Below are positions 6,594-31,698 of a DNA stretch of 52,050 nucleotides, piece after piece. The position numbers were made by a program, and so were the translations under genes. The notes below the pieces were generated by a model. The model worked only from the letters and a program-made list of their open reading frames with translations, was not told where the DNA came from and ran no database searches. The stretch's first letter is position 1. Every line of letters starts with the position of its first letter. Origin of the DNA: an uncultured Flavobacteriaceae bacterium (GTDB lineage: Bacteria; Bacteroidota; Bacteroidia; Flavobacteriales; Flavobacteriaceae); contig CAJWVI010000010.1 of NCBI GenBank assembly GCA_913048115.1, forward strand, positions 1 through 52,050, read 5' to 3'.

Positions 6594-6598
6594 ACCCC

Positions 6599-8465: not shown

Positions 8466-8470
8466 GTTGT

Positions 8471-11083: not shown

Positions 11084-11278
11084 AGTTTTATGGTTTTATA
11101 GGTTGATTTTCGTATCATATAAATTAGTGTTACGCATTGGTTTTTAAATTAACTTTGAACAAAACACCTGTTTGGTGCAAGCCCTATTTTAGTTTAATGC
11201 ACAGAAATTTATCTATTATACCTTAGGCTCCAGTAATTTAACATATAGCTAGTGACGCACTACTTCTTTGCTTTAATT
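11084..11278. other. Intergenic region upstream of PAS kinase
   Basis: No gene was seen here. It contains CCTTAGG (11221-11227; CCTAAGG on the minus strand) and, downstream in the minus direction, ACAGGTGTTTT (minus; plus coordinates 11161-11171). The two occur in the same order as upstream of the kinase at 3763. Confidence 0.5.
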
Positions 11279-16000: not shown

Positions 16001-16243
16001 TATGCAATACCAAACCCGGTAGAGTCCACCACGAGTATTTATTTTAATTCTAATCAATCTGAAGATATCATATTTATAGTCTATGATCAATTAGGGAGAC
16101 AGGTGTTGAAAAATAACTTTAGAACCACAGTAGGCAAAAACCAATTAATATTCAATAGACAAAATTTAAAAAGTGGCTTATATTTCTGTCTTGTAAAAAG
16201 TTCAATAACTAATTACAAACCCTTAAAGCTGCTGGTTAAATAA
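13022..16243 (+). CDS. Secreted ice-binding-like (DUF3494) protein with T9SS signal
   Basis: The 1073-residue protein has a signal peptide ending near residue 20 (TTAAQN). Residues about 25-235 form a DUF3494/ice-binding-like domain: LGTAANFILFTGSGAV, ITGDVGSHAG, an internal helix rich in alanine, IYPGVYSVASAVSITG and GTAIAYPGAVSLGAGG are family hallmarks. A repetitive beta region (about 240-475) follows, then EICDNGIDDDGDGLIDCDD, a calcium-loop-like insert common in Bacteroidota surface proteins. A middle region of about 450 residues is not recognised. The last 80 residues are a type A T9SS sorting domain (YAIPNPVESTTSIYF ... LKSGLYFCLVKSS). The protein is therefore exported and probably surface-bound or released. 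DUF3494 proteins may bind ice or act as adhesins; activity cannot be judged here. Confidence 0.88.
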   Translation: MNKIILSIGIIAISFTTAAQNKQPLTDIDLGTAANFILFTGSGAVANTGISNITGDVGSHAGAIAGFGLPTILNGNIHNTNSITAQASLDLAAACVQLQNIPATISDHSGIFGSIAGETIYPGVYSVASAVSITGTLTLDAQGDPDAMFIFKITGALNSVAGATVLLANDASSENVYWIAVGALALGANTTMKGTAIAYPGAVSLGAGGEIDGSLYSSVGAIAIDSTLGTNPSYSTTFSCDINAYLFQSNDVYSVDLASGSSYEVATDITTGNINATGYNPIDGYIWGSLSSPEKTIVRIGENFNTTTYYVDELPNSDLNIGDVSKDGIYYLKADGTTYYKIDLDPNSANFAQHQSTEILSQNISIDDWAFNTVDGKLYAVAKTSNILYRIDPSNGNVQTLGEVPILTGLTYTYDAVYFDVDGRFYISASETGTIFVVQSVQDLDGLITMDSNLFAFGPSSSSSDGARCPTALVAQEICDNGIDDDGDGLIDCDDPACSGYGVCPIIDSSVSGGNGGGLESNNRLSNKVSQRNYNRAKINYRFDRDVARRVRKPSTYGQKSQNSNFQLQNFIPLNVINEDYVIDSSPIDLLGITNAVAVYSVDYIKNEESIASVLALKTENGVYEHTKYICDRLLGAELISVSTIEINGYSFIKSIIRNTSNSIEFVLSLSAKVSDSKQNFSIESHWNLDKYENNITFYNFQIWSNSLDDLLLLGEEVLDLLDIEKPISDYNTSSPPTVFVRKGMYYNGNLQLQIINTNASDTISFVAGLRKTETSTIENITSSITLNKDYIIDLELATGSLFDIGFRISDGLATPDDLFMSDGPWGYDDSALSSNINTFSIKPNETIFETGVFPVERNVSIQGQTSEYIAVYRALTPRFNPVNLSGYKSLKLNVKGTGSLHITLVKKSILNWEDQYKTTIELTDEIQDQHISFSNFYSTLGYELLLDDLVTIVFTMISENGALVTKKMDLENIRFSLEDNEINNTNTNFSNLYAIPNPVESTTSIYFNSNQSEDIIFIVYDQLGRQVLKNNFRTTVGKNQLIFNRQNLKSGLYFCLVKSSITNYKPLKLLVK

Positions 16244-16648: not shown

Positions 16649-18727
16649 TTATTTACGTAAAGTAAGCTGCTTTCTAAAAAGAGGTTTTTTAAATAAATAC
16701 CATTTAAACCCAAAGCCAATTTCTGTAAAAGTAAAACCGGTAGCTGTTGCTGATGCAACATTACTGTTTTTTCCATACAGGTTTACTAAACAACGATCAG
16801 AGAATTTATACCCTATTTTACCACTAAATCTATAAGTGCTTTGAGCACTATTCTCTTCTATATACTGCAATCCTAGAGCCGCAGTTAACTCATAAAACCA
16901 CATCTTAGGTTTCACCAAGACTTCATCCTTAACCATATTAATAAAAACCTCATAGGCATTAAACTTTTCTGGACTAAAATAAACAGTTGGAACTTGATTT
17001 TTAAATGTAATGTATTGATAATTTAATCCTGCTTTCAAATTAGGTTTGCTAAGTATGTTGTAGTACAGAGAAGTAAAAAACAGGTTTCTAATATTGGCAT
17101 CACTTTGTGAGGTGAAATAGTACTGGGTAAATAAACCTAACTTAAAATTAGTATTCACATTGTGGTTTACAAAATAGTTATTCATTACAATTTCTCTATT
17201 CAATAATTCAGCATTAAAATTTTGAATTTCACGTGTATAATTTACATCTAATGATTGTAATTTAAAGGGCTTTATGTTAAGAGAAAGATTAGCTAAAACT
17301 TGATTGTACTTTTTATTTAAAGAACTTACAGAAATAAACCCGGCTGTACCTTTAAAAGTTACTCTTGGTAACACTTGATATGATATTCCGCCATTAAAAC
17401 CTTTTGAAGTAGCATAATTATAAGTAACATCATTCTCTGTGGTTCTGTAGGTATAGCTTCCTAAAAATTTAAACGTTGTTGAGAGTGGAATTTCCACAGT
17501 ATTATTTATAGCAAACGCCTTGTTGTTTCCATTATCAAAGGTGTATGCAGCTTTCATTTCATAAAATGGTGTAAAGGTTGTGTTAAGGTCTTTTAAAAAG
17601 GTTAATGCATCTTTTTGCTTATCATAAAAAGTTAAGGTGGTTTCGGCAGATCTATAGGCGTCATCATAATAACCTAAAGCCTTTAAGGCATTTGCTTTTC
17701 CTAAGTTACCATTAAAAGAGGTGCTGTCATTTAGTAAAATTCTATTGTAATCTTTTATGCTATTTTTAAAATTACTTTTATAAATATTTAATGTAGCTCG
17801 TAGCGCTAAAACCCAATTTTTATTTTCTTGTCCTTTTAGTAAAGTATCGATTAATGCTGTAGACTTTTTATAGTTCTTATTCCAAATTAAGGCTTGAATA
17901 TAACGCTCTTGAGTTTGCTTAATATCTAAGGCCTTTTTTAAATGTGGCAGGCTATCATAGGTTTTTTGACTTATAGTTAAAGCTTCTTTGTCCTTTCCCT
18001 TCAAGTGTGATACTAAGGCTAAAGCATTTAATGCTCTAATTTTACTGTCAAGGTTTTCAACTAATAAATTATAAACTGCTTTTGCATCGTCTAATTGATT
18101 GGTAATTAAATACAGGTTTGCTAAGTTTAATAAGGTGTCTTTATCATTGCCAAAATATGTTAGGCTTTCTTTTAATAAAGCTTCTGCATCTTCATAGTGT
18201 TGGGCTTGTTGTTTTTGGTAGGCATATCCTAAATACATATATTTTTTTGAGTTTAAGGCATTAGGATTTCCTGGCAAAATATCCAAGGCTTTATTGACAT
18301 AAAGTAAGGCGCCTTCATATTGTTTTAAACGAGAGAGTGTGTTTGCATAGCTTAATAAAGCTGAGAAACTTTTAGGTTCTTCTTCTATCAACGCTTCAAA
18401 ATAGCTTTTAGCTTTTAGAAAGTTACTGTTCCATAATAAAGATTCTCCATAATTTAATCTTACTTCAAGGTCAATGGGATAATCTGCTAATAAACTTATA
18501 AAAATAATCTTGGCTTGTTTTGGCTTTCCATTTAGTCCAATGGCACGGCCATAGCATACTCTTGCCGTTTTATTATCTGGATGTTCTTTTAATATAGTTT
18601 CAAAGAACATTTCAGCTTGCTGGTATTCACCAGTTTCCAAGTAGGTATACCCTTGTTGCATATCTTGAGAAAAGATAGAAAAAGAACAAGAGACAAAATA
18701 TAGTAATAAATAAGATTTTATTTTCAT
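16649..18727 (-). CDS. TPR protein with C-terminal outer-membrane beta-barrel (YaiO-like)
   Basis: The 692-residue protein has a signal peptide (cleaved near CSFSIFSQ, residue 21). Residues about 22-390 are helical repeats of the TPR type, for example YLETGEYQQAEMFFETILKE. Residues about 400-692 have alternating beta strands ending in GFGFKWYLF, like an outer-membrane barrel of the YaiO kind. A periplasmic TPR scaffold fused to an outer-membrane barrel is the layout of polysaccharide export porins such as PgaA, BcsC and PelB, though homology is not claimed. It is divergent from the STAS-flippase-GT4 operon and shares a 151-bp promoter gap with it, so export of the glycan made by that locus is a reasonable inference. 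A simple structural role is the alternative. Confidence 0.8.
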   Translation of the reverse strand: MKIKSYLLLYFVSCSFSIFSQDMQQGYTYLETGEYQQAEMFFETILKEHPDNKTARVCYGRAIGLNGKPKQAKIIFISLLADYPIDLEVRLNYGESLLWNSNFLKAKSYFEALIEEEPKSFSALLSYANTLSRLKQYEGALLYVNKALDILPGNPNALNSKKYMYLGYAYQKQQAQHYEDAEALLKESLTYFGNDKDTLLNLANLYLITNQLDDAKAVYNLLVENLDSKIRALNALALVSHLKGKDKEALTISQKTYDSLPHLKKALDIKQTQERYIQALIWNKNYKKSTALIDTLLKGQENKNWVLALRATLNIYKSNFKNSIKDYNRILLNDSTSFNGNLGKANALKALGYYDDAYRSAETTLTFYDKQKDALTFLKDLNTTFTPFYEMKAAYTFDNGNNKAFAINNTVEIPLSTTFKFLGSYTYRTTENDVTYNYATSKGFNGGISYQVLPRVTFKGTAGFISVSSLNKKYNQVLANLSLNIKPFKLQSLDVNYTREIQNFNAELLNREIVMNNYFVNHNVNTNFKLGLFTQYYFTSQSDANIRNLFFTSLYYNILSKPNLKAGLNYQYITFKNQVPTVYFSPEKFNAYEVFINMVKDEVLVKPKMWFYELTAALGLQYIEENSAQSTYRFSGKIGYKFSDRCLVNLYGKNSNVASATATGFTFTEIGFGFKWYLFKKPLFRKQLTLRK

Positions 18728-18773
18728 TACACATTTTTAGATAGTGTAAGTTAAGCATTCGTACACAATCATT

Positions 18774-18813
18774 TACCTATAGAAACTGTCTTCTGGTCGA
18801 AATATTTAAGCTA
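18774..18813 (+). promoter_or_regulatory. Composite upstream motif, copy A
   Basis: This copy contains TACCTATAGA (18774-18783), TGGTC (18794-18798) and TTAAGCTA (18806-18813). All three blocks recur in the same order at 27627-27675. The first two are 20 nt apart in both copies, and TTAAGCTA lies 73 nt before the STAS start here and 72 nt before the receiver-GT2 start there. It lies in the divergent gap between the TPR-barrel gene and the STAS operon. The binding protein is unknown. Confidence 0.6.
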
Positions 18814-18878
18814 CTTAGAGATATCTAGATGATATTTATACTAGATATTAAAATACGAATCATTAAAAATAAATTATA

Positions 18879-19157
18879 ATGGCATTGCAAATTTTTAAAA
18901 AAAATGGAACTTTTGAGTTATACGGTAATTTAAACACAAAAACATCACGGTTGTTTATTATACATTTTGAACATTTAATCAAGACATTAAAAAATGTAAC
19001 TATAAATATTGATAAAATAAGTATAATAGATACCAATGGATTAGAAGCACTAGAAACACTTATTGCAATTTCTTTAAAAAATGAAAGCGTTTTTTATATT
19101 ATCAGTAAAGAATATAAAGGAACCTATGCTTACAATAGCAAAACGTTTGCTATTTGA
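18879..19157 (+). CDS. STAS-domain protein (anti-sigma antagonist-like)
   Basis: This is a 92-residue single STAS domain. FELYGNLNTKT resembles the first strands of SpoIIAA-like proteins, and NIDKISIIDTNGLEALETL is the conserved loop. In SpoIIAA this loop has D-S-S-G with the second Ser phosphorylated; here it reads D51-T52-N53-G54, so the canonical phospho-acceptor is Asn. T52 might substitute. No anti-sigma kinase or PP2C phosphatase is nearby. It is the first gene of the flippase-GT4 operon and its 3' end overlaps the flippase start by 32 nt, which suggests coupled translation. It may control an enzyme of the locus by protein binding; that is inference. Confidence 0.75.
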   Translation: MALQIFKKNGTFELYGNLNTKTSRLFIIHFEHLIKTLKNVTINIDKISIIDTNGLEALETLIAISLKNESVFYIISKEYKGTYAYNSKTFAI

Positions 19158-20478
19158 AAATAATAAAACATTAAAAAGGATGTATTTAGGTTCATTTTTA
19201 AAAAGAAATCATTTTTCTCAAGAGCAGTTATTCATACTAAGTGTTTTGATAGTCAATGCTGGAAATTATTTATATAATATTATCCTTGGGCGCCTATTGG
19301 GCCCAGAACATTTTGCAGATGCCGCAGTATTAATTACCTTTTTATTAATACTATCTTTTGTAGGAATGAGTTTTCAATTAGTGATTGCTAAATTTTCAGT
19401 TTTTTTTGACAATAATTCCCTTATGGGTTTTACCTCTAAAGTCTATAAACATGCCCTTATGGTAGGAATCAGTATTGGAGCTTTAATTATGATTTTTTCT
19501 AAACAATTACAAGAAATCTTTAATACTGCTTCATCGAGTATGTTTGTTGTTTTTGGAATTGGAGTTCCTTTCTATTTTTTGATGAGTGTGAATAGGGGAG
19601 TGTTTCAAGGGAAAAAAGCATTTAAAAATCTATCAATTACATATCAAACCGAAATGTTAAGCAGGTTAATAATTACATTAGGCTTAATCTTTTTATTTAA
19701 CATACAATCACCATTAGTAATCGCTATTGGAATTGTACTTTCTTTTGTTTTTGGGTTAATCCCTTTTAAGTTTGAATATATAAACGTTAAAACCCCTTAT
19801 GTTTCTCAAGAAAATCAATCAAAACTAGTAAGAAACTTTTTTATAATCACAGCATTTTATGAATTCACTCAAATCATAATTAACAATAGTGATATTCTTT
19901 TAGTGAAACATTATTTTGAACCATACGAGGCAGGGCTTTATGCATCATTAGCTTTAATTGGCCGTGTTGTATATTTTACATCTTGGATGTTTGTTATGCT
20001 ACTATTACCAACTGTTGTTCAACTTAAAAAAGAGGGGAAGGTTACCGCTCCAATTTTATTTAAATATGTAGGTTATATTGCTTCTATAGCCTTATTTATT
20101 GTTTTATGTTGTTCCTTGTTTCCTGAAACGGTCATTACTCTTTTGTTTGGAAAAAGTTATATACTAATGGCTCCTTTGCTATGGAAATATGCTTTAGCAA
20201 CTGGCTTATTTGCTGTCTCAAATATATTTGCTTACTACTACCTATCATTAGATAGATATATGCCTGTAGTCTTTTCAGGATTTTTTGGCATGCTTCAAAT
20301 GGGGCTTATTATTTTCTTTCATGAAAGCTTAGAGGAAGTGGTTCATGTGCAAATTATTACAATGATACTCTTACTTGTTTTCCAAATTAATTATTTCGTT
20401 GTAGATACCATAACGCAATTAACAAAAGTCAAATGTTCTGCTGAACAAGATTGGGAATGGCATAACGAATTTATATAA
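19126..20478 (+). CDS. Polysaccharide flippase-like membrane protein (MOP superfamily)
   Basis: The protein has about 450 residues and about twelve membrane helices in the pattern of Wzx-like oligosaccharide flippases. NAGNYLYNIILGRLLGPEHFADAA is not quoted in full here, but the LGRLLGPEHF turn after helix 1 is a hallmark of the family. Wzx-type proteins move lipid-linked sugars across the inner membrane. I prefer ATG 19126, which has AAAGGA five nucleotides upstream. ATG 19180 just after the STAS stop also has an AAAAGG and is possible, while 19081 would add residues with no precedent. The gene overlaps the STAS gene and is followed by a GT4 transferase. It fits transport of the glycan made by this locus. 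Confidence 0.85.
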   Translation: MLTIAKRLLFENNKTLKRMYLGSFLKRNHFSQEQLFILSVLIVNAGNYLYNIILGRLLGPEHFADAAVLITFLLILSFVGMSFQLVIAKFSVFFDNNSLMGFTSKVYKHALMVGISIGALIMIFSKQLQEIFNTASSSMFVVFGIGVPFYFLMSVNRGVFQGKKAFKNLSITYQTEMLSRLIITLGLIFLFNIQSPLVIAIGIVLSFVFGLIPFKFEYINVKTPYVSQENQSKLVRNFFIITAFYEFTQIIINNSDILLVKHYFEPYEAGLYASLALIGRVVYFTSWMFVMLLLPTVVQLKKEGKVTAPILFKYVGYIASIALFIVLCCSLFPETVITLLFGKSYILMAPLLWKYALATGLFAVSNIFAYYYLSLDRYMPVVFSGFFGMLQMGLIIFFHESLEEVVHVQIITMILLLVFQINYFVVDTITQLTKVKCSAEQDWEWHNEFI

Positions 20479-20537
20479 GGCTCCCAATCTTATAGAAATA
20501 TACAATGTAACTATGTAACACATTAAAAACATAATTT

Positions 20538-21764
20538 ATGAGACTAGCAATCGTAACAGCATACCCCCCAAGTAAGGTAACATTAAATGAATATGCGTAT
20601 CATTTAGTAAAACACTTTAGACAAAAGAAGAGCATCACTGAGTTAGTATTATTAACGGATAAAACTCAGGGTGAAAAGAACATTAGTTTTACCCAAGACG
20701 GCTGTAAAATAACTATTAAAGAGTGCTGGAAGTTTAATAGCTATTTAAACCTAGTCAACGTAACTACGGCACTTGAAAAATCCAAACCAGATGCGGTGTT
20801 ATTTAATTTACAGTTTATGAAGTTCGGTGATAATAAAATTGCTGCTGCGTTGGGTTTGCTATTGCCTTTTGTTTGTAGGTTTAAATCTATTCCAAACATT
20901 GTATTGTTGCATAATATCTTAGAGGAAGTAGATTTAAACTCTGCTGGTTTTACATCAAATAAACTACAACAAAAAATATATGTATTTATTGGAACTATCT
21001 TAACTAGACTATTATTAAAAGCTGATATAGTTGTCGTAACAATGCAAAAATATGTTGATATTTTAGAGCAAAAATATGGTGCTAAAAACGTTTCTTTAAT
21101 TCCGCACGGAACATTTGAAACCTCAACAGAAAAACCAGTTTTTTCAATTGTAAAGCGACCTCTACAAATCATGACATTCGGAAAATTTGGCACCTATAAA
21201 AAAGTTGAGTTTTTAATTGAAGCAGTTGAAAAAGTAAGAGAACAAACAGGATTAGATCTAGAAATTGTTATTGCAGGAACAGACAATCCAAATGCATCTG
21301 GATATTTAGCAAGAATTAAAGAGCTTTATAAGCATGTACCGCAATTAAGATTCACAGGTTATGTAGAGGAGCATGATGTGCCTAAGCTTTTCAAAGAGAG
21401 TGCAGTAGTTGTGTTTCCTTATACATCTACATCTGGGAGTTCTGGTGTCTTACATCAGGCTGGTAGTTATGGTAAAGCTGTTATAATGCCAGATTTAGGC
21501 GATCTAGCATTACTGGTAAAAGAGGAAGGGTATCAGGGTGTGTTTTTTGAACCTAGTAGTATTGAAAGTCTAGCTCTTGCAATTAAAGTTTTAGTTACAA
21601 ATAACACACTTAGGCTAAAAATTGCAAAAGCAAATTATAAAGCAGCAACGGCATTTCCAATGGGAAAAATAACCAATATGTACTTAAAGAAGTTTAATCA
21701 AATAACTAATAAAAATGTGTCTAATAAATTAACTGTATTAGAAACTGTTATGCTTAGTAAATAA
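20538..21764 (+). CDS. GT4-family glycosyltransferase
   Basis: The 408-residue protein has the two-domain GT-B fold. The N-terminal half starts MRLAIVTAYPPSKVTLNEYA, with the loop typical of the family, and the hinge is near NVSLIPHG. The C-terminal nucleotide-sugar half includes MTFGKFGTYKKVEFLIEA, RFTGYVEEHDVPKLFKES and VVFPYTSTSGSSGVLHQA, where the GSS loop binds the donor phosphate. It should be cytosolic or peripherally bound to the inner membrane. It lies 59 nt after the flippase gene and its 3' end overlaps the convergent hydrolase gene by 11 nt. Donor and acceptor cannot be predicted. Confidence 0.9.
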   Translation: MRLAIVTAYPPSKVTLNEYAYHLVKHFRQKKSITELVLLTDKTQGEKNISFTQDGCKITIKECWKFNSYLNLVNVTTALEKSKPDAVLFNLQFMKFGDNKIAAALGLLLPFVCRFKSIPNIVLLHNILEEVDLNSAGFTSNKLQQKIYVFIGTILTRLLLKADIVVVTMQKYVDILEQKYGAKNVSLIPHGTFETSTEKPVFSIVKRPLQIMTFGKFGTYKKVEFLIEAVEKVREQTGLDLEIVIAGTDNPNASGYLARIKELYKHVPQLRFTGYVEEHDVPKLFKESAVVVFPYTSTSGSSGVLHQAGSYGKAVIMPDLGDLALLVKEEGYQGVFFEPSSIESLALAIKVLVTNNTLRLKIAKANYKAATAFPMGKITNMYLKKFNQITNKNVSNKLTVLETVMLSK

Positions 21765-23265
21765 AATTAAATGCTGCTTTCTTTTTTCCATAGATATCTA
21801 TAAATCCAAATTGTTTTTGAGCATTTTTACGCCAGGGAAGACTACCTACAACTTTCTTTGGTACTATTTCAAAATCATACAAAGTCCAAGACATAAATTG
21901 TAAGTTATTTTTTGCAATTATTTCCTGGGCTTTTTTATGATAGCTTGCTTGGTCTTTTTGGGTATTACCAAAAGGTTTCCAAATACCATTATAGGAAGAC
22001 ATACCAAATTCTTGAATAACTACTGGTTTCTCACCCACTGTTTTTTTTAGTTTATTAAGTACTATTTCTAGAGTCTGTATGTCATCATAAAAATGAAATG
22101 ATACAAAGTCTACTTTATCTTTTAAAATGGATGCACTCTGCGCATTTGACCATCCTATAGTTACAGGGTGATCGGGATCTATGGTCTTAACCAGATCAAT
22201 CATAGTATTAAGCCATGAAATAACATTTGCTTTTCCTCTTGAGTCAAAATCTAAGTTTGGCTCATTTTTAATATCCCACGCAATAATTGCTTTATGATCT
22301 TTTAAACTATAAATTAGTGTCTTTGCATGATGCATGTTTAATGTCCAGTTCAAGACTGAATAATCACCATAAAAATCAAAAAGTGTCACCACAACTTTTA
22401 AACCATTTTGTTCAGCAATATCTAGTGTTATTCTTAATCTTTCTAGTTTCTTTTCATCAACATTGGCACCGCCAAAATCATCATACTGTACAAAAACACG
22501 AATAGAATTTAAGCCACTGTTTTTTATAATTTTAAAATCATTAGAAATAGTACTTTTTGAAAATTCATCTCCAAACATATTCCAAGGTGTTGCTTGAGGA
22601 TAATAGTTAATTCCTTTTATATTTAATTGTTTTACGGGACTTATTATAGGTTCGGTTTTAAAAGGTTCACTCTTTTGCTTTACAAAATGTCGTATCCTCC
22701 AAAAACCATCTTCTAATAAAATTATAATCTTGTATGTAGATTTTTCTTTAGTTTCAAAAATTAATTTTTTGTCTTTATAAACACGTTTGTACTCTATAAC
22801 ATCTTTATCAGTAATAACTGCTAATTGACCATCTTCACTAAAGAATTCTAGTGTTGGATTGTGTTTTAATGTTGTAGATTCAACGGTAACTTTTTCTGTA
22901 GTGTTTAATTCTATGAAGGCGAAAATATTCTTACGAGCATTGTCTGTATAATAGTCTTTGATACCAAGAGTTGTGTTTGTCTTATAGGCCAAAATTTTTA
23001 CATACCAAGCGTCTAAATAATCATCTTCTATTTTTTTTAAAATCAATTCATCCATTGGTCTGCCTTCATTATTTAGTGGTGACCATCTAAGTTCAGGGAT
23101 ATATTGCTCTATTTTTTTTAGTTTAGTATGTAGCATACTACTTCTGTCTGCGCCTGTATTTAAATATGCAAATACTGAACTAATACCCGAAATAATAACG
23201 ATAATAACTAGAACGTATGAGGCAATTAGAACGCTACGAATTATATTTTTATTTAGGTTTACCAT
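21754..23265 (-). CDS. Membrane-anchored GH5-like glycoside hydrolase
   Basis: The 503-residue protein has one N-terminal membrane helix (about 10-33). Residues about 70-210 form an alpha+beta segment with SnoaL/NTF2-like character. Residues about 225-503 form a TIM-barrel glycosidase of clan GH-A: AWDIKNEPNLDF carries the acid/base Glu after Asn, and PVVIQEFGMSSY carries the nucleophile Glu. Placement in GH5 is likely but GH2 or GH39 relatives are possible. The gene overlaps the Ig-like gene upstream by 7 nt and ends in an 11-bp overlap with the convergent GT4 gene. Hydrolases of this kind trim or release nascent exopolysaccharide in other secretion systems (BcsZ, PelA, PslG). That role is inferred. 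Confidence 0.85.
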   Translation of the reverse strand: MVNLNKNIIRSVLIASYVLVIIVIISGISSVFAYLNTGADRSSMLHTKLKKIEQYIPELRWSPLNNEGRPMDELILKKIEDDYLDAWYVKILAYKTNTTLGIKDYYTDNARKNIFAFIELNTTEKVTVESTTLKHNPTLEFFSEDGQLAVITDKDVIEYKRVYKDKKLIFETKEKSTYKIIILLEDGFWRIRHFVKQKSEPFKTEPIISPVKQLNIKGINYYPQATPWNMFGDEFSKSTISNDFKIIKNSGLNSIRVFVQYDDFGGANVDEKKLERLRITLDIAEQNGLKVVVTLFDFYGDYSVLNWTLNMHHAKTLIYSLKDHKAIIAWDIKNEPNLDFDSRGKANVISWLNTMIDLVKTIDPDHPVTIGWSNAQSASILKDKVDFVSFHFYDDIQTLEIVLNKLKKTVGEKPVVIQEFGMSSYNGIWKPFGNTQKDQASYHKKAQEIIAKNNLQFMSWTLYDFEIVPKKVVGSLPWRKNAQKQFGFIDIYGKKKAAFNFIY

Positions 23266-24476
23266 AATTTTTTAGCATTAAATATTTTTTCTAAACCTGC
23301 AGTTTTAACTACTATAGTATACTTATCATTAGTATAAATGTCTGATTTTAAATGGAACGTTGCCAACCCTTCAAATGATGTTTTAGTTTCCGTTTTAAAA
23401 AGCGTATTATTTAAATAAATGAAAAGCGTAACCTTCATGCCATCTGGTATTATTTGCTTCATAAAGCTAAGAAGAGGGCCAACAGTAATGTCTCTATTGG
23501 TTTTAGAAAAGACAACATCAAAGCCTTTAATAACCTGCTTGTACTTTAAAACAATTACTTCACTCTCAGCGATTCCATCAACATATGCTTTTATACTCCA
23601 CTGTGTTTTATAATCAGGGTGTATCATTTTGGAAGTAGCAATTCCATTAATTGTAGCCCCTGAAGTTTTTAAAATATTTCCTTTTTCATTGGTAATAAAA
23701 AAAGTGACATATGTCGCGTCACTAACAATATTATTGTGCTTGTCTACTATAATAGAAGTAGAGAGTGTTGTTAATTGATTCCCATCTGCATACTCATGTG
23801 GGCGACTTGCAGAGATTTTAAAATCTATTGGAATTGCAGCAGATACAGTAACTGAAAACTCTTTAGAGTTAACCCCCAATGATTCAGAAGAGACTAATAT
23901 ACGCCCAAGCTCTTTTTGAGAATAAATATTTTTATAAGAGATTAAATTTTTAGTAAATATAGCTTCATTTTTTTCTGAATTTAAAAACTGATCTTTTGCT
24001 ACTACACGTGTGTTTTTAGGTAATGGATTGTCTAAGGCATCTGTTGGAATAACCACTAACATGGTATAGTCTGTTCCGCCAGCCTCTATGCTAGGTGGCC
24101 CAAGATAAGTTTCCATCGATGACACTTCTTTTTTTGGACCTATCTTGAATTTGCCAGACACCAAAGAATTTTCATACATTAGTTTCCAATTTACCACTCC
24201 AATTTTATTACTAACATTTAAAGGCATATTGTATGAGAGGGTTTTACTATTATAAGTTGGAACCACTAAAGTAGAACCATAACTGCTTGAGCAGTATAAT
24301 AGAGGGGTAGCCTTTCTTGAAGATGAAAACTGTAATACAATAGACCTTCCAGCTTCATATTCTGTTTGAGTTGTTTTCAACCTAAAACTTGGAGAACTTT
24401 CACTTTTTTGTATCAGGGTAAATGATGATAATACAATCAGGGATATAATAGACATGTATATATATTTATTCTTCAT
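23259..24476 (-). CDS. Secreted protein with Ig-like repeats, function unknown
   Basis: The 405-residue protein has a signal peptide (about 1-26, SSFTLIQKSESS). The rest is beta-rich: DYTMLVVIPTDALDNPLPKNT and later STSIIVDKHNNIVSDAT are typical of bacterial Ig-like domains of the invasin/Big_1 kind, about three to four in tandem. No catalytic motif is seen. There is no T9SS domain and no lipobox, so it is probably periplasmic. It lies between a GT-C-like membrane protein (overlap of 1 nt, TAATG) and the GH5-like gene (7-nt overlap). It may be a scaffold or a polysaccharide-binding part of the complex. Confidence 0.65.
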   Translation of the reverse strand: MKNKYIYMSIISLIVLSSFTLIQKSESSPSFRLKTTQTEYEAGRSIVLQFSSSRKATPLLYCSSSYGSTLVVPTYNSKTLSYNMPLNVSNKIGVVNWKLMYENSLVSGKFKIGPKKEVSSMETYLGPPSIEAGGTDYTMLVVIPTDALDNPLPKNTRVVAKDQFLNSEKNEAIFTKNLISYKNIYSQKELGRILVSSESLGVNSKEFSVTVSAAIPIDFKISASRPHEYADGNQLTTLSTSIIVDKHNNIVSDATYVTFFITNEKGNILKTSGATINGIATSKMIHPDYKTQWSIKAYVDGIAESEVIVLKYKQVIKGFDVVFSKTNRDITVGPLLSFMKQIIPDGMKVTLFIYLNNTLFKTETKTSFEGLATFHLKSDIYTNDKYTIVVKTAGLEKIFNAKKLW

Positions 24477-27400
24477 TAATTTGGATTGCCAATGTATGAG
24501 TTAGTTTCAATTTTTATGTAGCTAAAGTCTGGATGGTTAATTTTTTGCAATTCACCATATGTGTGATTTTCAATTCTATTAGGTACTATTTTATTTGAAA
24601 TAGATTTATTAGGGAGCCCATTTACAAAAATATTTTCCATTGTATCATTAATCAATTTTACGTTTCCACTGTTTAAAATTTGATATTCAAAAACCTTTTT
24701 ACGTTGTTGTCTAATTCCATCTTTAATAAACAGATGATCTACCCAAAGCATTTTTTTGCTTTGATCATAATAGGATATTAGAAGTTGTGGAACTGTAATT
24801 TCTTGAACGCCACTATTAAATAAAGTACCATTAATCATGTTGTCGTTAATGTTTAATTCGCTAATAGCTAGGTTTTTATACAGATCAGACCCTGATACAT
24901 TTCCAGCTACTTGTAAGTTGAACTTTGTTGGTTGTTCCTCCAAATCTATCGGTGTAAATTCATCAGGATTAAATGTATCAGGAATAGAATCTTGTGTTTT
25001 TGACCATGCAATACCTTCAAAATTAATTCTAAAAGCACTAGATTCTTTAGGTAATAGTTTGTGCTTTACGTGATATTTAGCATTGTAAACCGCCAGCGAT
25101 TTATTGTCATCATTGTATAATGTTCCTTTTAATACAACATCAGCAGGCACATTGTCTATATTTTGAACTTCGCCAATAATTGCATAATGGCCCTTATATT
25201 TTACAAGCTTTGCTGTTAGAACTTCTAATACTGGCTGTTTTAAAACATCTTCATGATGAGTTTGCTCAGTAGTTATTCTTCTTCTTCCTTGATTAAAAAA
25301 GGTAATACTATTGTTTGAATAAAGTTGGTCTGGAGGTAAATCAGTATCCAAAACATCAGGTATAATGTACCATTTGCTATTATGTTTTATTAATGATTTA
25401 TAATCAACGCGATTAATTTTTTCAAGAGGAGTAATCCAGTCTGTTGTTATTTTTGCAGTTGCAAGACTATCATTTCTGCTAGTAATAACGGTTTGTATTG
25501 CATCAAGTTTTGCATAACTACTCAGTAAACCGTCTGTAACTGCAATTTCAAGCATATATTGGGCAATTGTAATAGTACTTTTTGGGTCAATTAAACTATA
25601 TGCTTTTTCAAATTCTTTAAAGTCTAAAGCATTATAGTATGACATGATAACATTTTCTGGAATTCGTTGTGAATTATTTTTCAAATAGAATTGAGACAAA
25701 CAATAAATAACAATTACCATTAAACAAATTGACCAATAATGGGTTATTTTTAGAATAGAATAGGAGTTTTTAGAATATTTCTTTGAATGCCTTAACGCCT
25801 TTGAGTTTACTTTTGGTATTTTTTTTAATTTAGTGACCAATAGCATTTGAATCTTTAAGATGAATGCTATTATTAGTGTCAAAATAGGGAAAACTCCCCA
25901 AATAACTTTTTGCCATTCAGCGACTTCGCCTTTATATAAAATGGAAGAAATTGGTGCTATATTTAACCGCTCCCAAACCATAATTCCATTTTGTAATTGT
26001 CGTAATCTTTGCCAACCAGAGAAATAGAGAATAGGATCATAAAATTTGTCATTTGAAAAAATATACTTAAGGTTATATTTCTCTGGGGTTGTTAAAAACT
26101 GCTGTAATGAACCAATTCCTGCAACCCCTTTAAATTTTGAATTCTCTAATCGCTCAACAGGTCTTGTGGTCATTTCTGGTAATCTTCGTCCAGAATGGTA
26201 ATTACCATCTACAGTCATCGCATTGGTTTGCGCACTTAGCCATGCCATTTGATCACCAAAACCCAAGGTTAAGAAACGCCATTTATCATGATCATCTTGA
26301 TTTAGAAAATTAACAATAGGCAGCATCTTAATTTTTTGTGGTTGTAGTGGTCTAAAATACCCAAGGCTCATCGTGAAAACAGTCATAAAGACAAATAACC
26401 CAACAAGTACCCCTCCAATTATTCTATGGTAAACAGCCCCAAAATTGCCTTGAATGAGTACTTTGAAATCCCCCTTAGTGAATCGATAAACAAACTCACC
26501 CAATAATGGCAAAGACATAATAGAGGCCCAAAGAGTAAACCTATCCAAGGTAAGAATATTAAATGCTGTTTCTCCCAAAATCATTTTTGGTATAGGTGTT
26601 GTTCCACCTGTTCCTAAAATTGTTAGTATCGTAATAGATAAACCAAAAAATATATAGCGTTTACTGTAATACCTATAAAAAATATAAGGCAATATAATAA
26701 GTAAAATTCCCCAAGGAATTATAAAAAACACGAGTCCAGAAGATGTAATTTCTAAAAAATTATCACGAGATCCATGCGGAATTGGAACTTGTGTTATTGG
26801 ATTTTTTTTAGAATTAATCCAATAGGGTAGAATGCACCCAATTATTATTACTAAAGAAGATATTCCAAAAGCAAAAATTCTTTTAAAGAGTTTAGAAGTA
26901 CTTTTTAAAAAAACTTTAAAAGTAACTTTCTTTATAGATTTTACTTGCTCTATTGAAACATCAATAATGACCATTCCTATCAACGGAAAGATGAAAAACA
27001 CCATTCCAAATATTGAGGTAACATGGTGAGACGAAACAGTAACTGCAATTAAAGATAAAGCAGTTGCAAAATACCAACGCTTTCCCGTTTTTAACCATAA
27101 ATAAATTTCAGGTAATGCATGCAATAAAACTGAAATCCCCACAATACTTGGTAGTTGTCCAAATATATGAAGTGTTTCTACAAAAGAAGATGAAAACACA
27201 GCCAATATACTAGCATAACCAGCTACAGTTCTGTTTGAGGTTATTAATAAAGAAAAACGATACACACCTGTTATAAAAAGAACTATAGATAAAAGTGCAA
27301 CCGTAAATAAGCCAAATTTTAATCCACCAATTATAGATAGTAGCCCAATACATTGGTGTACTAGTGGCGGATAACTCATTACAGTAAAGCCGGTATACCA

Positions 27401-27565
27401 TTTATAATTCCATGGTTCAAACCAACTATTTGCATAATGATCAGCAAAAAACATATGTATTAGTGCATCATACGTAGTTTCTAAAGTAAAAAAAATAGAA
27501 CTACCATGAAAAGCTAAGCCTAAAAGTATGGCTACAATTAAATATTTTTTTGAAGTTTCTTTCAT
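24476..27565 (-). CDS. Large GT-C-like membrane protein (PTPS-related family)
   Basis: The 1029-residue protein has about 13 hydrophobic helices in residues 1-600. Its start, LETTYDALIHMFFADHYA, has an Asp after helix 1 where GT-C transferases and oligosaccharyltransferases place a catalytic or metal-binding Asp. It resembles the family annotated as 6-pyruvoyl-tetrahydropterin-synthase-related membrane protein, a name that probably does not describe its function. After a further helix near 625, residues about 640-745 look SnoaL/NTF2-like and 770-1029 are beta-rich, both presumably periplasmic. GT-C enzymes use polyprenyl-phosphate sugars, and the divergent receiver-GT2 gene encodes an enzyme of the type that makes them, so the pair is consistent. 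A strong AGGAGGA precedes the ATG. Confidence 0.75.
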   Translation of the reverse strand: MKETSKKYLIVAILLGLAFHGSSIFFTLETTYDALIHMFFADHYANSWFEPWNYKWYTGFTVMSYPPLVHQCIGLLSIIGGLKFGLFTVALLSIVLFITGVYRFSLLITSNRTVAGYASILAVFSSSFVETLHIFGQLPSIVGISVLLHALPEIYLWLKTGKRWYFATALSLIAVTVSSHHVTSIFGMVFFIFPLIGMVIIDVSIEQVKSIKKVTFKVFLKSTSKLFKRIFAFGISSLVIIIGCILPYWINSKKNPITQVPIPHGSRDNFLEITSSGLVFFIIPWGILLIILPYIFYRYYSKRYIFFGLSITILTILGTGGTTPIPKMILGETAFNILTLDRFTLWASIMSLPLLGEFVYRFTKGDFKVLIQGNFGAVYHRIIGGVLVGLFVFMTVFTMSLGYFRPLQPQKIKMLPIVNFLNQDDHDKWRFLTLGFGDQMAWLSAQTNAMTVDGNYHSGRRLPEMTTRPVERLENSKFKGVAGIGSLQQFLTTPEKYNLKYIFSNDKFYDPILYFSGWQRLRQLQNGIMVWERLNIAPISSILYKGEVAEWQKVIWGVFPILTLIIAFILKIQMLLVTKLKKIPKVNSKALRHSKKYSKNSYSILKITHYWSICLMVIVIYCLSQFYLKNNSQRIPENVIMSYYNALDFKEFEKAYSLIDPKSTITIAQYMLEIAVTDGLLSSYAKLDAIQTVITSRNDSLATAKITTDWITPLEKINRVDYKSLIKHNSKWYIIPDVLDTDLPPDQLYSNNSITFFNQGRRRITTEQTHHEDVLKQPVLEVLTAKLVKYKGHYAIIGEVQNIDNVPADVVLKGTLYNDDNKSLAVYNAKYHVKHKLLPKESSAFRINFEGIAWSKTQDSIPDTFNPDEFTPIDLEEQPTKFNLQVAGNVSGSDLYKNLAISELNINDNMINGTLFNSGVQEITVPQLLISYYDQSKKMLWVDHLFIKDGIRQQRKKVFEYQILNSGNVKLINDTMENIFVNGLPNKSISNKIVPNRIENHTYGELQKINHPDFSYIKIETNSYIGNPN

Positions 27566-27570
27566 TTATC

Positions 27571-27577
27571 TCCTCCT
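27571..27577 (-). promoter_or_regulatory. Strong Shine-Dalgarno for the GT-C-like gene
   Basis: AGGAGGA on the minus strand lies 5 nt before the ATG at 27565. Most genes in this window, and in Bacteroidota generally, have no such site, so it stands out and supports this start. Confidence 0.6.
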
Positions 27578-27626
27578 AATATCTTACCATAAATATACAC
27601 AATTTTAATAGCGCTTTGATTTTAAC

Positions 27627-27675
27627 TACCTATAGAGAACGACGTTTGGTCTACACTTTATCATAGCTTAAGCTA
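27627..27675 (+). promoter_or_regulatory. Composite upstream motif, copy B, with 12-bp palindrome
   Basis: TACCTATAGA (27627-27636), TGGTC (27647-27651) and TTAAGCTA (27668-27675) match copy A at 18774-18813. Here the last block is the right half of a perfect 12-bp palindrome, TAGCTTAAGCTA (27664-27675). It lies upstream of the putative -33 region of the receiver-GT2 promoter, where an activator would bind, and in the gap shared with the divergent GT-C operon. Confidence 0.6.
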
Positions 27676-27704
27676 AATTGAGTTTTAAAAAAAAGCGAAC
27701 AATG

Positions 27705-27712
27705 TACATTTG
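27705..27712 (+). promoter_or_regulatory. -7 promoter element for receiver-GT2 gene
   Basis: TACATTTG fits TAnnTTTG. A TTTT at 27683-27686 sits 18 nt upstream where -33 TTTG is expected. Transcription would begin near 27719, some 20 nt before ATG 27740, which argues against the TTG at 27710 as a start. Confidence 0.55.
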
Positions 27713-27739
27713 ATCTATCTGGAACGAAAAAACGTTATT

Positions 27740-28930
27740 ATGAAAATTTTAGCAATAGATGATCAACAATTAGTATTATTCCCTTTACAAAAAAGGTTAG
27801 AGGAGTTGGGGTATGAAGTAATAATAGAAACCGATTCCTTTAAAGCAATTGGACATTACAATTCTTTCAATCCAGATTTAGTGATTGTTGATATTAATAT
27901 GCCCGTAGTTTCAGGTTTAGATGTTGTAAAATATATAAGAAACACAAAAAAATCTCAAACACCAATAATGATTTTATCTAGTGACACTAAAGATGAAACT
28001 ATTACAGAAGGTTTTGAATTAGGAATTAATGATTACATGAAAAAGCCCTTAAGTTTAAATGAAATTAGTGCACGTGTAAAAAGATTAATAGGTGCACCAG
28101 AGCTAGAGAATACAATTTCAAATAGTGATGTTATAATTCAAGAGCGTTGTGTAGGGGTCGTAATTCCTTGTTATAATGAAGAAGAACGTTTGTTAAGTAA
28201 AGAATTTACAGATTATATAAATAAAAATTCGGGATATCATTTATGTTTTGTTAATGATGGTAGCAAAGATCAAACATTAAAGATTCTTAAAGAATTACAA
28301 AAAGGAAGAGAAGATTTTATTACCGTTTACCACTGTAAAGAAAATGGAGGTAAAGCAGAAGCAGTACGTTTAGGAATGCTACATATGGCCGCCAAAGAAG
28401 ACTTAGACTATCTCGGTTTTTTAGATGCAGATTTATCTACAGATTTGGCAGATTTTGATGATTTAGTAAAAACTATAGCACATTCAGAGTTTAAAATAGT
28501 GAGTGGTTCTAGAATTTCGAGAATGGGAGCAAATATCACTAAAGAGTCTGCAAGAATGATAATAAGCCTGACCATTAATTTTATCATTAGAAAAATTTTA
28601 TCAATGGATTTTAAAGACACGCAATGCGGTGCTAAAATATTTCACAAGGATGTTATAAATATAGCTTTCAAAAAGAAGTTTGTAACAAAATGGATTTTTG
28701 ATGTTGAAATCTTTAAAAGAGTTACACAGTATTATGGATTAAAAAAAACAAAAAAAATACTTTGTGAGCAACCCTTAAAAAGATGGATCCATGCCGATGG
28801 TTCAAAATTGTCTATTAAAGATTCATTGAAAATTGTTTGTAAATTAGCACAAATTGCTTGGGTATATAGGTCAAAAAAAGTGAGTGTTAAATCATTTACA
28901 CCACGAGTAGAAGTAGGTAAAGTTTTTTAA
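27740..28930 (+). CDS. Receiver domain fused to GT2 (polyprenyl-phosphate sugar synthase-like)
   Basis: The protein has 396 residues from ATG 27740. Numbered from there, residues 1-118 are a full receiver domain (D7/D8, phospho-acceptor D51 in VDINMPV, switch S80/S81, K102 in MKKPL). Residues about 138-375 are a GT-A glycosyltransferase of family 2: GVVIPCYNEEERL, VNDGSKDQT, GFLDADLSTD (DAD at 229-231, metal and donor binding) and DTQCGAKIF. It has no membrane helices and resembles dolichyl-phosphate-mannose synthase-type enzymes. Fusion of a phospho-receiver to such a transferase is unusual and implies direct control of sugar-donor synthesis by a histidine kinase. No kinase is adjacent, but several lie in 3.7-12.5 kb. 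It is divergent from the GT-C-like gene. Confidence 0.9.
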   Translation: MKILAIDDQQLVLFPLQKRLEELGYEVIIETDSFKAIGHYNSFNPDLVIVDINMPVVSGLDVVKYIRNTKKSQTPIMILSSDTKDETITEGFELGINDYMKKPLSLNEISARVKRLIGAPELENTISNSDVIIQERCVGVVIPCYNEEERLLSKEFTDYINKNSGYHLCFVNDGSKDQTLKILKELQKGREDFITVYHCKENGGKAEAVRLGMLHMAAKEDLDYLGFLDADLSTDLADFDDLVKTIAHSEFKIVSGSRISRMGANITKESARMIISLTINFIIRKILSMDFKDTQCGAKIFHKDVINIAFKKKFVTKWIFDVEIFKRVTQYYGLKKTKKILCEQPLKRWIHADGSKLSIKDSLKIVCKLAQIAWVYRSKKVSVKSFTPRVEVGKVF

Positions 28931-29032: not shown

Positions 29033-31447
29033 TTAACGCAGTTTAGGAAATTTTGTTGGATCTGCTTCGTGCATCATTTCATATACTTTTTCAAAAACAT
29101 CTTCTGTAGAAGGTTTACTAAAGTAATCTCCATCGGTGCCATAGGCAGGGCGGTGTGGTTTTGCCGCCAATGCTTGTGGCTTACTATCTAGATATTGATA
29201 TCCATTTTGCTCATCTACAATATGGTGTAAGATATATGCAGAAGCTCCTCCAGGAACATCCTCGTCTATAACCAATAACCTATTAGTTTTCTGGATGCTT
29301 TTTACCATGTCGTGGTTTAAGTCTAAAGGAAGTAATGACTGTACATCAATAACCTCTGCATCAATACCTACTTGTTGTAATTCTTTTGCAGCTTCTTCTA
29401 CAATGCGTAGCGTACTAGCATAAGATACTAGGGTAATGTCAGTTCCTTCTTTCAGGGTTTCAACAACACCAATAGGGGTTTTAAATGCTCCCAAATTGGT
29501 AGGTAATGGTTCTTTTAGTCTATATCCATTCAAGCATTCAATCACCAAGGCCGGCTCATCTGTAGTTAAGAGGGTATTGTAAAATCCAGCCGCTTTTGTC
29601 ATATTCCTAGGTACTAGAATATACATACCACGTAATAAATGAATCAATCCACCCATTTGAGAACCACTGTGCCATATTCCTTCTAGTCTATGTCCACGAG
29701 TTCTAACAATAAGCGGTGCTTTTTGCTGGCCATTAGATCTGTACCGCACCGTTACCAAATCATCACTCATAATTTGTAATGCATACAAGATATAATCTAG
29801 GTATTGTATTTCAGCAATAGGGCGCAAGCCTCTCATCGCCATTCCAATACCTTGCCCAAGTATGGTAGCTTCTCTAATACCTGTGTCACTCACGCGAAGT
29901 TCACCGTATTTTTCTTGCATGCCTTCCAATCCTTGGTTTACATCACCAATAGTACCTGCATCTTCTCCAAATATTAAAGCCTCTGGGTACTTGCTTAAAA
30001 TGGCGTCAAAGTTGTCTCTCAAGACCACACGGGCATCTACATCTTCTGCCTCTGAGTTATAGGTAGGAAGTACCTCTGTAATGGTTTTTCCATTAACATC
30101 AGCTTCGCTATAAAGATTGGATGAGTACTTGGGTTGTATGGTTTCAAAATAGCCATGCAACCAATCTTGTAATTGTTTCTTTTCTGCGCTATCTTCATTG
30201 ATAACATAACGCAGTGCTTTTCTACAAGCTCCAGCGATGCTTCTGCGAAGAGGTTCTTTCTCCAAAGCCAATTCATTTGTAATGGCTTCTATAAAATTCT
30301 TGCTTGCTGCACCTTCAGCAAGATTATTAAGTAAGGTAAGGGCCTTATCTTGTTCTTGTTTTTGAGGCGCAAGAAATGCTTCCCAAGCAGCTTTTTTACC
30401 AATGCGTACTTGTGTTTTTATATCTTTTTCTAATGCTGCCAACTCCTCTTGTGTAGCAATATTAGTTTCTAGCATCCAGGCGCGCATTTGCACATTACAA
30501 TCGTAAGACACCTCCCAAGCCAGACGCTCTTTGCTCTTGTACCTTTCATGAGATCCACTTGTAGAGTGCCCTTGAGGTTGCGTTAATTCTTTTACGTGTA
30601 TTAAAACGGGTACATGTTCTTCTCTAGCAATTTTTGAAGCTTTCTGGTAGGCTTCAATAAGTGCTGGGTAATCCCAACCCATCACGCGTATAATTTCATA
30701 ACCATTGGCATGCTCATCGCGTTGAAACCCTTTTAAAATTTCAGATATATTTTCTTTGGTAGTTTGATGTTTTGCATGTACAGAAATACCGTATTGATCA
30801 TCCCAAACACTTATAACCATAGGGACCTGCAGCACTCCAGCAGCATTAATAGTTTCCCAAAATAAGCCTTCGCTTGTACTTGCGTTACCAATGGTTCCCC
30901 AAGCTACTTCGTTTCCTTTGTTAGAAAGCCCACTCAAATGCTCAAGACCATCTACCTGCCTAAATATTTTAGAAGCCTGTGCAAGTCCTAACAATCTAGG
31001 CATTTGCCCAGCAGTAGGAGAGATGTCTGCGCTACTGTTTTTAATTGTTGCCAGGTTCTTCCAGCTTCCATCTTCATTAATAGTTGGTGTGGCAAAGTGA
31101 CCACCCATTTGGCGTCCTCCACTCATAGGATCTGCCGCTACATCTGTATGCCCATACAATCCAGCAAAAAACTGCTGAATATTCATGGCGCCAATAGCCA
31201 TCATAAAGGTTTGGTCACGGTAATAACCACTACGCCAATCACCTGCTTTAAATGCTTTTGCCCAGGCTAATTGCGGTACTTCTTTGCCATCTCCAAAAAT
31301 ACCAAACTTTGCTTTACCCGTTAAAACCTCACGACGCCCTAACAAACTACATTCTCTACTTGTAACTGCAATTTTATAATCATTTAAAACTTCTGTTTTA
31401 AAATCTTCAAAAGACAGGTCGTTATTTGTGTTGGGTTGTTTTTGCAT
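29033..31447 (-). CDS. 2-oxoacid dehydrogenase E1, fused alpha and beta subunits
   Basis: The protein has 804 residues from the ATG at 31447; an upstream TTG would add 11 residues without a domain. The N-terminal half is the E1-alpha-like thiamine diphosphate domain, with GTIGNASTSEGLFWETI and SVWDDQYGIS. The C-terminal half, from about residue 460, is E1-beta-like, with IFGEDAGTIGDVNQGL, LSDTGIREATILGQGIG-type segments and VIDVQSLLPLDL. Fused E1 proteins of this type are common in Bacteroidota and are usually named 2-oxoisovalerate dehydrogenase, which makes acyl-CoAs for branched fatty acids. Pyruvate cannot be excluded. E2 and E3 are not in the window. Confidence 0.88.
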   Translation of the reverse strand: MQKQPNTNNDLSFEDFKTEVLNDYKIAVTSRECSLLGRREVLTGKAKFGIFGDGKEVPQLAWAKAFKAGDWRSGYYRDQTFMMAIGAMNIQQFFAGLYGHTDVAADPMSGGRQMGGHFATPTINEDGSWKNLATIKNSSADISPTAGQMPRLLGLAQASKIFRQVDGLEHLSGLSNKGNEVAWGTIGNASTSEGLFWETINAAGVLQVPMVISVWDDQYGISVHAKHQTTKENISEILKGFQRDEHANGYEIIRVMGWDYPALIEAYQKASKIAREEHVPVLIHVKELTQPQGHSTSGSHERYKSKERLAWEVSYDCNVQMRAWMLETNIATQEELAALEKDIKTQVRIGKKAAWEAFLAPQKQEQDKALTLLNNLAEGAASKNFIEAITNELALEKEPLRRSIAGACRKALRYVINEDSAEKKQLQDWLHGYFETIQPKYSSNLYSEADVNGKTITEVLPTYNSEAEDVDARVVLRDNFDAILSKYPEALIFGEDAGTIGDVNQGLEGMQEKYGELRVSDTGIREATILGQGIGMAMRGLRPIAEIQYLDYILYALQIMSDDLVTVRYRSNGQQKAPLIVRTRGHRLEGIWHSGSQMGGLIHLLRGMYILVPRNMTKAAGFYNTLLTTDEPALVIECLNGYRLKEPLPTNLGAFKTPIGVVETLKEGTDITLVSYASTLRIVEEAAKELQQVGIDAEVIDVQSLLPLDLNHDMVKSIQKTNRLLVIDEDVPGGASAYILHHIVDEQNGYQYLDSKPQALAAKPHRPAYGTDGDYFSKPSTEDVFEKVYEMMHEADPTKFPKLR

Positions 31448-31698
31448 TGTTAAATTATTTCTAGTATTGTATTTACGCAAAAGTACTAAAAATCAAGATG
31501 CGAAGCAACGCCTATTTGTTGTGATATTCACAGCTATTTATTGGTTTCATTAAGAATTACCTATTACTTTACCTACTTTAAACAATTACGATACGAATCA
31601 ACAAAACAAAAGCCAACCCGTATAAAAAATAAATAAGGTTTAAATATGTAAGATTACAGCTTAAAAATCCTTGTGGTTTACTTTAAGGTACTAAGAAA
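31448..31698. other. Intergenic region, no gene seen
   Basis: This gap of about 250 bp lies between the E1 start and the end of the DtxR-type regulator gene, both on the minus strand. It should carry the E1 promoter. I see no small open frame or hairpin that I can support. Confidence 0.4.

Follow-up and report, generated by a model that had tools for sequence, protein, structure and literature searches.

How the secretion of exopolysaccharide is switched in the Flavobacteriaceae is a question, since no GGDEF domain was found in any of 80 genomes of the family (8 of 14 control genomes were positive). Marine polysaccharide is handled to a large extent by flavobacteria, and the locus considered here, eight genes at positions 16649–28930, may offer one answer. 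It lies in a 52,050-nt stretch (the whole stretch analysed, called the window below) of contig CAJWVI010000010.1, from an uncultured Flavobacteriaceae bacterium (assembly GCA_913048115.1). The block is probably an exopolysaccharide assembly and export machine. The original prediction, made from the letters of the window, was of a polysaccharide secretion locus with control by receiver and STAS domains in place of cyclic di-GMP (c-di-GMP). The last point fits the lack of GGDEF domains, and going by these sequences c-di-GMP is unlikely to be the switch of this locus. The genes of the block are as follows, with domain matches and their E values.

16649–18727, minus strand: barrel protein, the putative outer-membrane exporter; signal-peptide helix, about 21 TPR-type helices and a predicted 16-stranded beta-barrel, with Pfam TPRs
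18879–19157, plus strand: STAS-domain protein, accessory and variable; PF01740 at 6e-4, below the Pfam cut-off
19180–20478, plus strand: MOP-type polysaccharide flippase; PF01943 (Polysacc_synt) at 2.9e-8 to 3.5e-8, about 11 hydrophobic segments
20538–21764, plus strand: GT4-type (GT-B) glycosyltransferase; PF13692 at 8e-21, PF00534 (Glycos_transf_1) at 7e-20
21754–23265, minus strand: GH5-like hydrolase; PF00150 (Cellulase) at 1.4e-14, hydrophobic anchor at residues 8–26, an extra domain and a TIM barrel
23259–24476, minus strand: exported Ig-like protein; Big_1 at 7e-6, below cut-off
24476–27565, minus strand: GT-C-like large membrane protein (GTC) of 1029 aa; about 11 hydrophobic segments and C-terminal soluble domains, a probable distant GT-C glycosyltransferase
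27740–28930, plus strand: Rec-GT2, a receiver and a GT2 glycosyltransferase in one chain; Response_reg at 2e-23, Glycos_transf_2 at 1.1e-21

All eight open reading frames (ORFs) are found where they were first placed, in four transcription units. The GH5 and Ig-like genes overlap by 7 bases and the Ig-like and GTC genes by 1, while the GT4 and GH5 genes overlap tail to tail by 11. One correction was needed: the flippase ORF as listed from 19081 runs into the STAS gene, and because five relatives (409–422 aa) align from its residue 34–48, the start was moved to near 19180.

The genes are inherited together. In a survey of 179 genomes of the window's family, GTC, GH5, barrel, flippase and GT2 were searched singly, the Ig-like and GT4 genes lying outside this search. 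GTC was intact in 48 genomes and fragmented in one (G493), which was placed among the 131 without an intact copy. Strict E cut-offs were applied in the family searches: 1e-60 for GT2, 1e-50 for the flippase and a LytTR gene described below, and 1e-30 for GH5, the barrel and a secreted protein also described below. GH5 was present in 48/48 of the GTC genomes vs 0/131 of the others, the barrel in 47/48 vs 0/131, the flippase in 46/48 vs 0/131 and GT2 in 48/48 vs 3/131. The 51 genomes that pass 1e-60 for GT2 do not include G493, whose own GT2 was seen in locus L107. The absences of barrel and flippase fall in fragmented assemblies, G520 (~100 contigs, both genes) and G462 (~340 contigs, flippase). 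Where GTC and the barrel are on one contig they are never more than 8.9 kb apart (42/42 genomes). The pattern is close to all-or-none.

In wider searches, GTC was present in 6 of 148 genomes from the order, 10 of 296 from the phylum and at least 548 stretches of GTDB contigs; viral contigs had no relative of it. Neighbourhoods were counted in the best 80 of these (at least) 548 relatives, all with at least 72% GTC identity, so that the counts lean to near kin, and gene order in the 67 of those loci longer than 22 kb (“wide loci”). Two alignments (A3 and A4) took in 33 and 20 relatives, chosen for diversity and length. GTC, Ig-like, GH5 and GT2 genes are each in 67/67 wide loci, GT4 in 66, the flippase in 63 and the barrel in 62. 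The seven genes other than STAS stand in a single order in 62 of the 67, three of these with inserted extra copies of GT4 or Rec-GT2; among the 80, no GT2 was called in the three short loci L026, L038 and L040. Order and strand are also kept in seven of ten further, mostly more distant cases (L007, L008, L010, L011, L105, L108, L109), down to 55% GTC identity. Conserved co-occurrence, which was to be expected if the block is a functional set, is thus seen both in this order and in the five genes searched singly. The genes form a real unit, in which STAS is accessory and variable.

Two loci stand apart. The block of Portibacter lacus (L039, L095; G288), which is outside the Flavobacteriaceae, is nested among those of the family on a GTC tree, reflecting either lateral transfer or a labelling problem. 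L107 of G493 (7537–9518) holds a decaying block, with an open receiver-less GT2 frame (242 aa) and, adjoining it, a GTC that is fragmented and contains stops; next to these are a receiver and a PAS kinase.

The firmest functional clue, as far as a model can give one, is the predicted fold of the barrel protein. The model is confident (mean pLDDT, the predicted local distance difference test, 89.0), with about 21 helices after the signal peptide and then 16 strands. The first of its Foldseek matches among solved structures is BcsC (9b8a; E 3.3e-12, TM 0.36/0.44). Within the first 30 are also 4y25, a polysaccharide outer-membrane secretin that we take to be PgaA, which matches over the barrel part (TMt 0.80), and the PelBC complex (9h80; TMt 0.59). 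PelB, BcsC and PgaA share a 16-stranded fold, according to a 2025 paper on PelBC (PMC12141448). By its model, the protein is nearest to BcsC-type exporters, and the idea that the locus follows the exporter logic of the Bcs, Pga and Pel systems is supported to that extent.

A translocon of the Slam type, moving surface lipoproteins or other proteins and not a glycan, would also combine TPRs with a barrel, and TPR_Slam does match (2.9e-4, below its cut-off), next to an Ig-like protein that is likely a lipoprotein in some relatives. The model, however, has 16 strands. The Slam barrel presumably has 14, and no Slam appears in the 50 Foldseek rows that include BcsC, 4y25 and PelBC. With five sugar-active or flippase neighbours in addition, it is very improbable that the barrel serves such a purpose.

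At its opposite end the block has the fusion protein. Rec-GT2 has receiver residues D7, D8, D51, S80 and K102, satisfying the pattern conserved in two-component receivers (DD, D, S/T, K), a GT2 DAD motif at 229–231, and no hydrophobic segment. The nearest PDB chains to the GT2 domain are ArnC (9e-7) and sll0501 (3.6e-5), the latter presumably GtrB. Both are taken here to be makers of polyprenyl-phosphate sugars, and a putative activity of that type is suggested for GT2 by this likeness. The GT2 family has 129 members across 77 of the 80 loci. DAD is present in all 80 copies longer than 200 aa; 69 have a receiver and 11 do not, and the five receiver residues (DDDSK) are complete in 69/69 of the former. 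The classes first used for this count were partly defined by the residues being counted, and a recount by length and filled receiver columns gave the same numbers. Each of the 11 receiver-less copies is the sole family member of its locus, and nine of the 48 family genomes have only the receiver-less form (GT2 matches at E 1e-60 or better). On a quick GTC tree (94 rows, four of them without a receiver label, and some long branches) receiver state needs at least four changes, three of them forced by well-supported branches. Since the catalytic motif persists whether or not a receiver is present, the receiver looks like an optional control part. The receiver-based control of the original prediction survives in this form: the receiver is fused to GT2 with its phosphorylation residues intact, but it does not look essential.

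The other 49 family members are short (136–195 aa), without DAD, one per locus and always beside a Rec-GT2. This short GT2-like protein (e.g., L012:7800-8294) is thus kept in 49 of the 80 loci; it is absent from the window, where Rec-GT2 is followed after ~100 bases by a gene (29033–31480) that looks by eye like an E1-type dehydrogenase. Three genomes without the block have lone Rec-GT2 genes (L100, L101, L102, in G491, G527 and G531), that of G491 standing between two GT2 genes without a receiver. Close to the GT2 end of the block, 31 of the 80 loci have a gene cluster of which the one member scanned (L073:7122-8099) is a phosphomannose isomerase; this was not adopted as a hint that the sugar is mannose, because such a neighbour may simply reflect normal gene order.

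The partner proposed for GT2 is GTC. Its window copy has no match in Pfam, NCBIfam or PDB sequences, and profiles built from 6 and 19 rows had no PDB match either, with E allowed up to 1 and 10. Near the N-terminus there are a YPPL motif and an invariant Asp33 (TYDALIH), the latter in 34/34 members. The family most often touched is PF10131 (PTPS_related): with E allowed up to 1, 17 of 34 members match it, none reaching the Pfam cut-off (best 1.5e-4), as do three of six in a second set; in a search of 31 genomes two PF10131 matches fell inside GTC (6e-5 and 5e-4). A model from 34 sequences (the window's and 33 relatives at 72–85% identity to it) was poor, with a mean pLDDT of 55. A fold search with it gave transglutaminase beta-sandwiches first and, at rank 6 (TM 0.17), a chain that we take to be human STT3A; it was discarded as evidence. 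GTC is a probable distant GT-C glycosyltransferase, its tie to GT-C families being weak.

In the GH5 protein Glu335 and Glu419, presumably the expected acid/base and nucleophile, are invariant in 7/7 members. Its profile matches endoglucanases, mannanases, GH158 and GH2 enzymes, which do not settle a substrate. Among Ig-like proteins, at E up to 0.1, Invasin_D3 is matched by 6/6 members and Big_1 by 5/6, and a Cys lipobox can be seen by eye in some relatives (L008, L009, L011) though not in the window copy.

Members of the flippase family match PF01943 and PF13440, the former above its cut-off, so that a Wzx-type flippase is present in the block. With GTC multi-spanning and having large soluble parts, a Wzx/Wzy-type pathway can be drawn in which the flippase is Wzx, GTC the polymerase, and the barrel stands in place of Wza. 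It is a rather remote reading, however. In the eight block proteins, to which this search was confined, there was no recognisable priming phosphoglycosyltransferase, chain-length regulator or Wzc-type co-polymerase, and no Wza or other OPX exporter; moreover, a polymerase role for GTC leaves its pairing with a polyprenyl-phosphate-sugar synthase unexplained.

STAS control has fared less well than receiver control. A STAS match was found by tblastn in 46 of the 67 wide loci, in six of these solely at the block's far end, and a STAS-family ORF is on the flippase side in 53 of the 80 loci. At the phosphorylation position there is Ser or Thr in 14/65 copies near the flippase (Thr in the window copy), and Arg in 16/16 copies at the far end. 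The phosphorylatable Ser/Thr of STAS partner-switching proteins is therefore not a family trait here. There is precedent for STAS control of a polysaccharide locus in SypA, and the symbiosis polysaccharide (Syp) locus of Vibrio fischeri similarly combines a small STAS protein with phosphorylation signalling, as described in two papers (PMC4517449; PMC8256260). SypA is there phosphorylated on Ser56, the position that so often lacks Ser or Thr in the block's STAS protein, itself often missing. Because of these two counts (53/80 and 14/65), STAS control of the locus is weakly supported and doubtful, as is the role of core regulator for STAS.

A ninth gene, missed by the original prediction, appears to belong with the block:

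13022–16243, plus strand: T9SS (type IX secretion system)-secreted surface protein, a co-inherited accessory; Ice_binding, DUF6923, a conserved region and a T9SS sorting tail

It is the convergent neighbour of the barrel gene. The region between DUF6923 and the T9SS tail (residues 530–976) was found in 37 of the 48 GTC genomes vs 1 of the 131 others. Identity is 43–100% in 29 of the 37 (0/131 outside) and only 30–33% in the other eight; the lone outsider is at 27%. In 28 of the 37 a copy is found no farther than 25 kb from the barrel. The other nine have none so near, so that linkage alone does not explain the pattern. The Ice_binding domain is confined to the window copy among nine aligned. 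At the cell surface the DUF6923 protein probably acts together with the polymer. Unlinked copies (L113, L114, L116, L117) adjoin a gene that by eye resembles those for acyl-CoA synthetases.

Also missed, being outside the coordinates of the block, was a signalling cassette at 3214–7297:

3214–3627, plus strand: stand-alone receiver; Response_reg at 2.4e-21
3730–6273, plus strand: PAS/GAF histidine kinase; HATPase_c at 5e-25, with PAS, GAF and HisKA
6276–6593, plus strand: Hpt-like phosphotransfer protein; Hpt at 0.021, below cut-off
6599–7297, plus strand: LytTR-type response regulator; LytTR at 1e-20, Response_reg at 3.9e-19

The LytTR gene was found in 47 of the 48 GTC genomes vs 29 of the 131 others; in 40 of the 48 it is no more than 25 kb from the barrel (median distance 2.9 kb). 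The kinase–Hpt–LytTR order recurs near the block in L008, L009, L041, L044, L088, L090, L103, L105, L106 and L109, and homologues of the stand-alone receiver are beside the cassette kinases in L041, L044, L090 and L103. The cassette probably controls transcription, and may pass phosphate to Rec-GT2. The former is the safer reading because the cassette is also found beside receiver-less blocks. A dedicated link from kinase to GT2 was considered and lowered in standing for the same reason, and because of the LytTR genes in 29 genomes without an intact GTC. The cassette is also within 10 kb of the lone Rec-GT2 genes of G491 and G527. In the window, the interval between the cassette and the secreted protein (7359–12478) contains three further histidine-kinase genes, one of which includes a receiver.

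Taken as an exopolysaccharide assembly and export machine, the locus might work as follows, the enzymatic steps, product and wiring being those that we infer. GT4 would build the glycan at the inner membrane and the MOP flippase would carry it across. GT2 would make a polyprenyl-phosphate sugar in the cytoplasm, to be used in the periplasm by GTC in extending or decorating the glycan. The membrane-anchored GH5 protein would trim or free the chain, partnered in the periplasm by the Ig-like protein, and the chain would then pass along the TPR helices and leave by the 16-stranded barrel. Outside, the T9SS-secreted DUF6923 protein would probably meet the polymer at the surface. Phosphorylation of the receiver could gate the supply of lipid-linked sugar in most sampled lineages, the gate being absent in others, while the kinase/Hpt/LytTR cassette would probably act on transcription and might also feed the receiver. 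The original prediction had the synthase of known systems replaced by a polyprenyl-phosphate-sugar route. That is one reading only; GT4 and the flippase may build and move the backbone, with GT2 and GTC decorating it. A fuller proposal is possible but distinctly more tentative than that of an export machine as such: that it is independent of c-di-GMP, that a phosphorelay directly gates GT2 through the fused receiver and so sets the flow of lipid-linked sugar to GTC, that exit is BcsC/PgaA-like with a dedicated DUF6923 organiser outside, and that lineages switch between gated and ungated forms.

Several observations weigh against reading the block as an exopolysaccharide machine of this kind. 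Gene order is broken in three of the ten further cases: L106 has an inverted barrel gene, in L009 the flippase and GT4 genes sit between GTC and Rec-GT2, and in G571 (52% GTC identity) barrel, flippase, GT4 and Rec-GT2 (L103) are on one long contig and GH5, Ig-like and GTC genes (L104) on another. G417, G441 and G489 are likewise rearranged, judged by coordinates, and because of these six cases the set of genes is firmer than their order. The family counts come from the best few candidates scored per genome (e.g., six for the barrel, 10 for GT2), and the exact-test p-values, though very small, overstate independence since the genomes are kin. The low whole-length TM to BcsC shows a likeness by parts and not of a rigid whole, and most other fold matches of the barrel protein are unrelated TPR proteins. 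The GT-C assignment rests on below-cut-off matches, a poor model and a mixed fold search. Finally, the receiver-less blocks that the cassette adjoins (L105, L106, L109) weaken a dedicated kinase-to-GT2 link.

The split in G571 gives a hint of two sub-modules, and these may even be two machines that usually travel together. In such a case barrel, flippase and GT4 would export a glycan, while GT2, GTC, Ig-like and GH5 proteins would glycosylate some other envelope target (a lipid, a T9SS cargo or a surface protein). The two G571 contigs are long (459 and 187 kb), a T9SS-tailed protein is co-inherited with the block, and GT2 with GT-C is a usual pair in envelope or protein glycosylation, all of which would suit two machines. 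Set against this are the constant short distance between GTC and barrel and the presence pattern: of the 48 genomes with GTC and GH5 only the fragmented G520 is without both barrel and flippase, and none of the three (GH5, barrel, flippase) occurs in the 131 genomes elsewhere. In G571 itself, moreover, Rec-GT2 sits with the barrel half and not with GTC. Two machines are accordingly an unlikely arrangement, though the most serious of the alternatives to a single export machine.

The original prediction knew of no named system with this set of genes, and a literature search covering open-licence papers likewise found none described. The nearest by logic is Pel (pelABCDEFG), which has in common with the block a GT4, a MOP-type membrane protein, TPRs with a 16-stranded barrel (predicted here), and a periplasmic hydrolase. 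There is, however, no PelF or PelG family match in the window GT4, or in the flippase and 10 relatives, and no PelD or GGDEF match among the eight block proteins. The block has a GH5 protein where Pel has the PelA hydrolase/deacetylase, and adds the GT2/GT-C pair. From Bcs it differs in a GT2 without hydrophobic segments, unlike the membrane-embedded GT2 synthase, in the lack of any PilZ match in the block, and in having a GH5 as hydrolase; the two are alike in that BcsC is the top structural match of the barrel. Of the Pga models, PgaA scores 30 bits against a cut-off of 367, over the TPR part only, and PgaC 52 against 422, over part of GT2 only. No PgaB-type deacetylase match was found among the block proteins, where the hydrolase is GH5, although 4y25 does match the barrel. 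On the features tested, the block thus falls outside Pel, Bcs and Pga, and judging by sequence would be a variant among barrel-exported exopolysaccharide systems.

The fusion of a receiver to a glycosyltransferase has a precedent in methanogens. REC-glycosyltransferase fusions are described in the Methanobacteriaceae (PMC5847659), where the enzyme is BcsA-like and archaeal, whereas that of the block is a GT2 of putative polyprenyl-phosphate-sugar-synthase type and belongs to an export locus that is conserved. The E. coli system NfrB/NfrA (PMC8669469) is also comparable in making exopolysaccharide by a glycosyltransferase with a signalling domain of its own and an outer-membrane partner, but control there is by c-di-GMP bound by NfrB.

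For the Flavobacteriaceae, the locus provides a defined, co-inherited gene set, with receiver-gated and ungated versions in related species. The question it poses is whether phosphorylation of a glycosyltransferase can stand in for c-di-GMP as the switch of polymer export.

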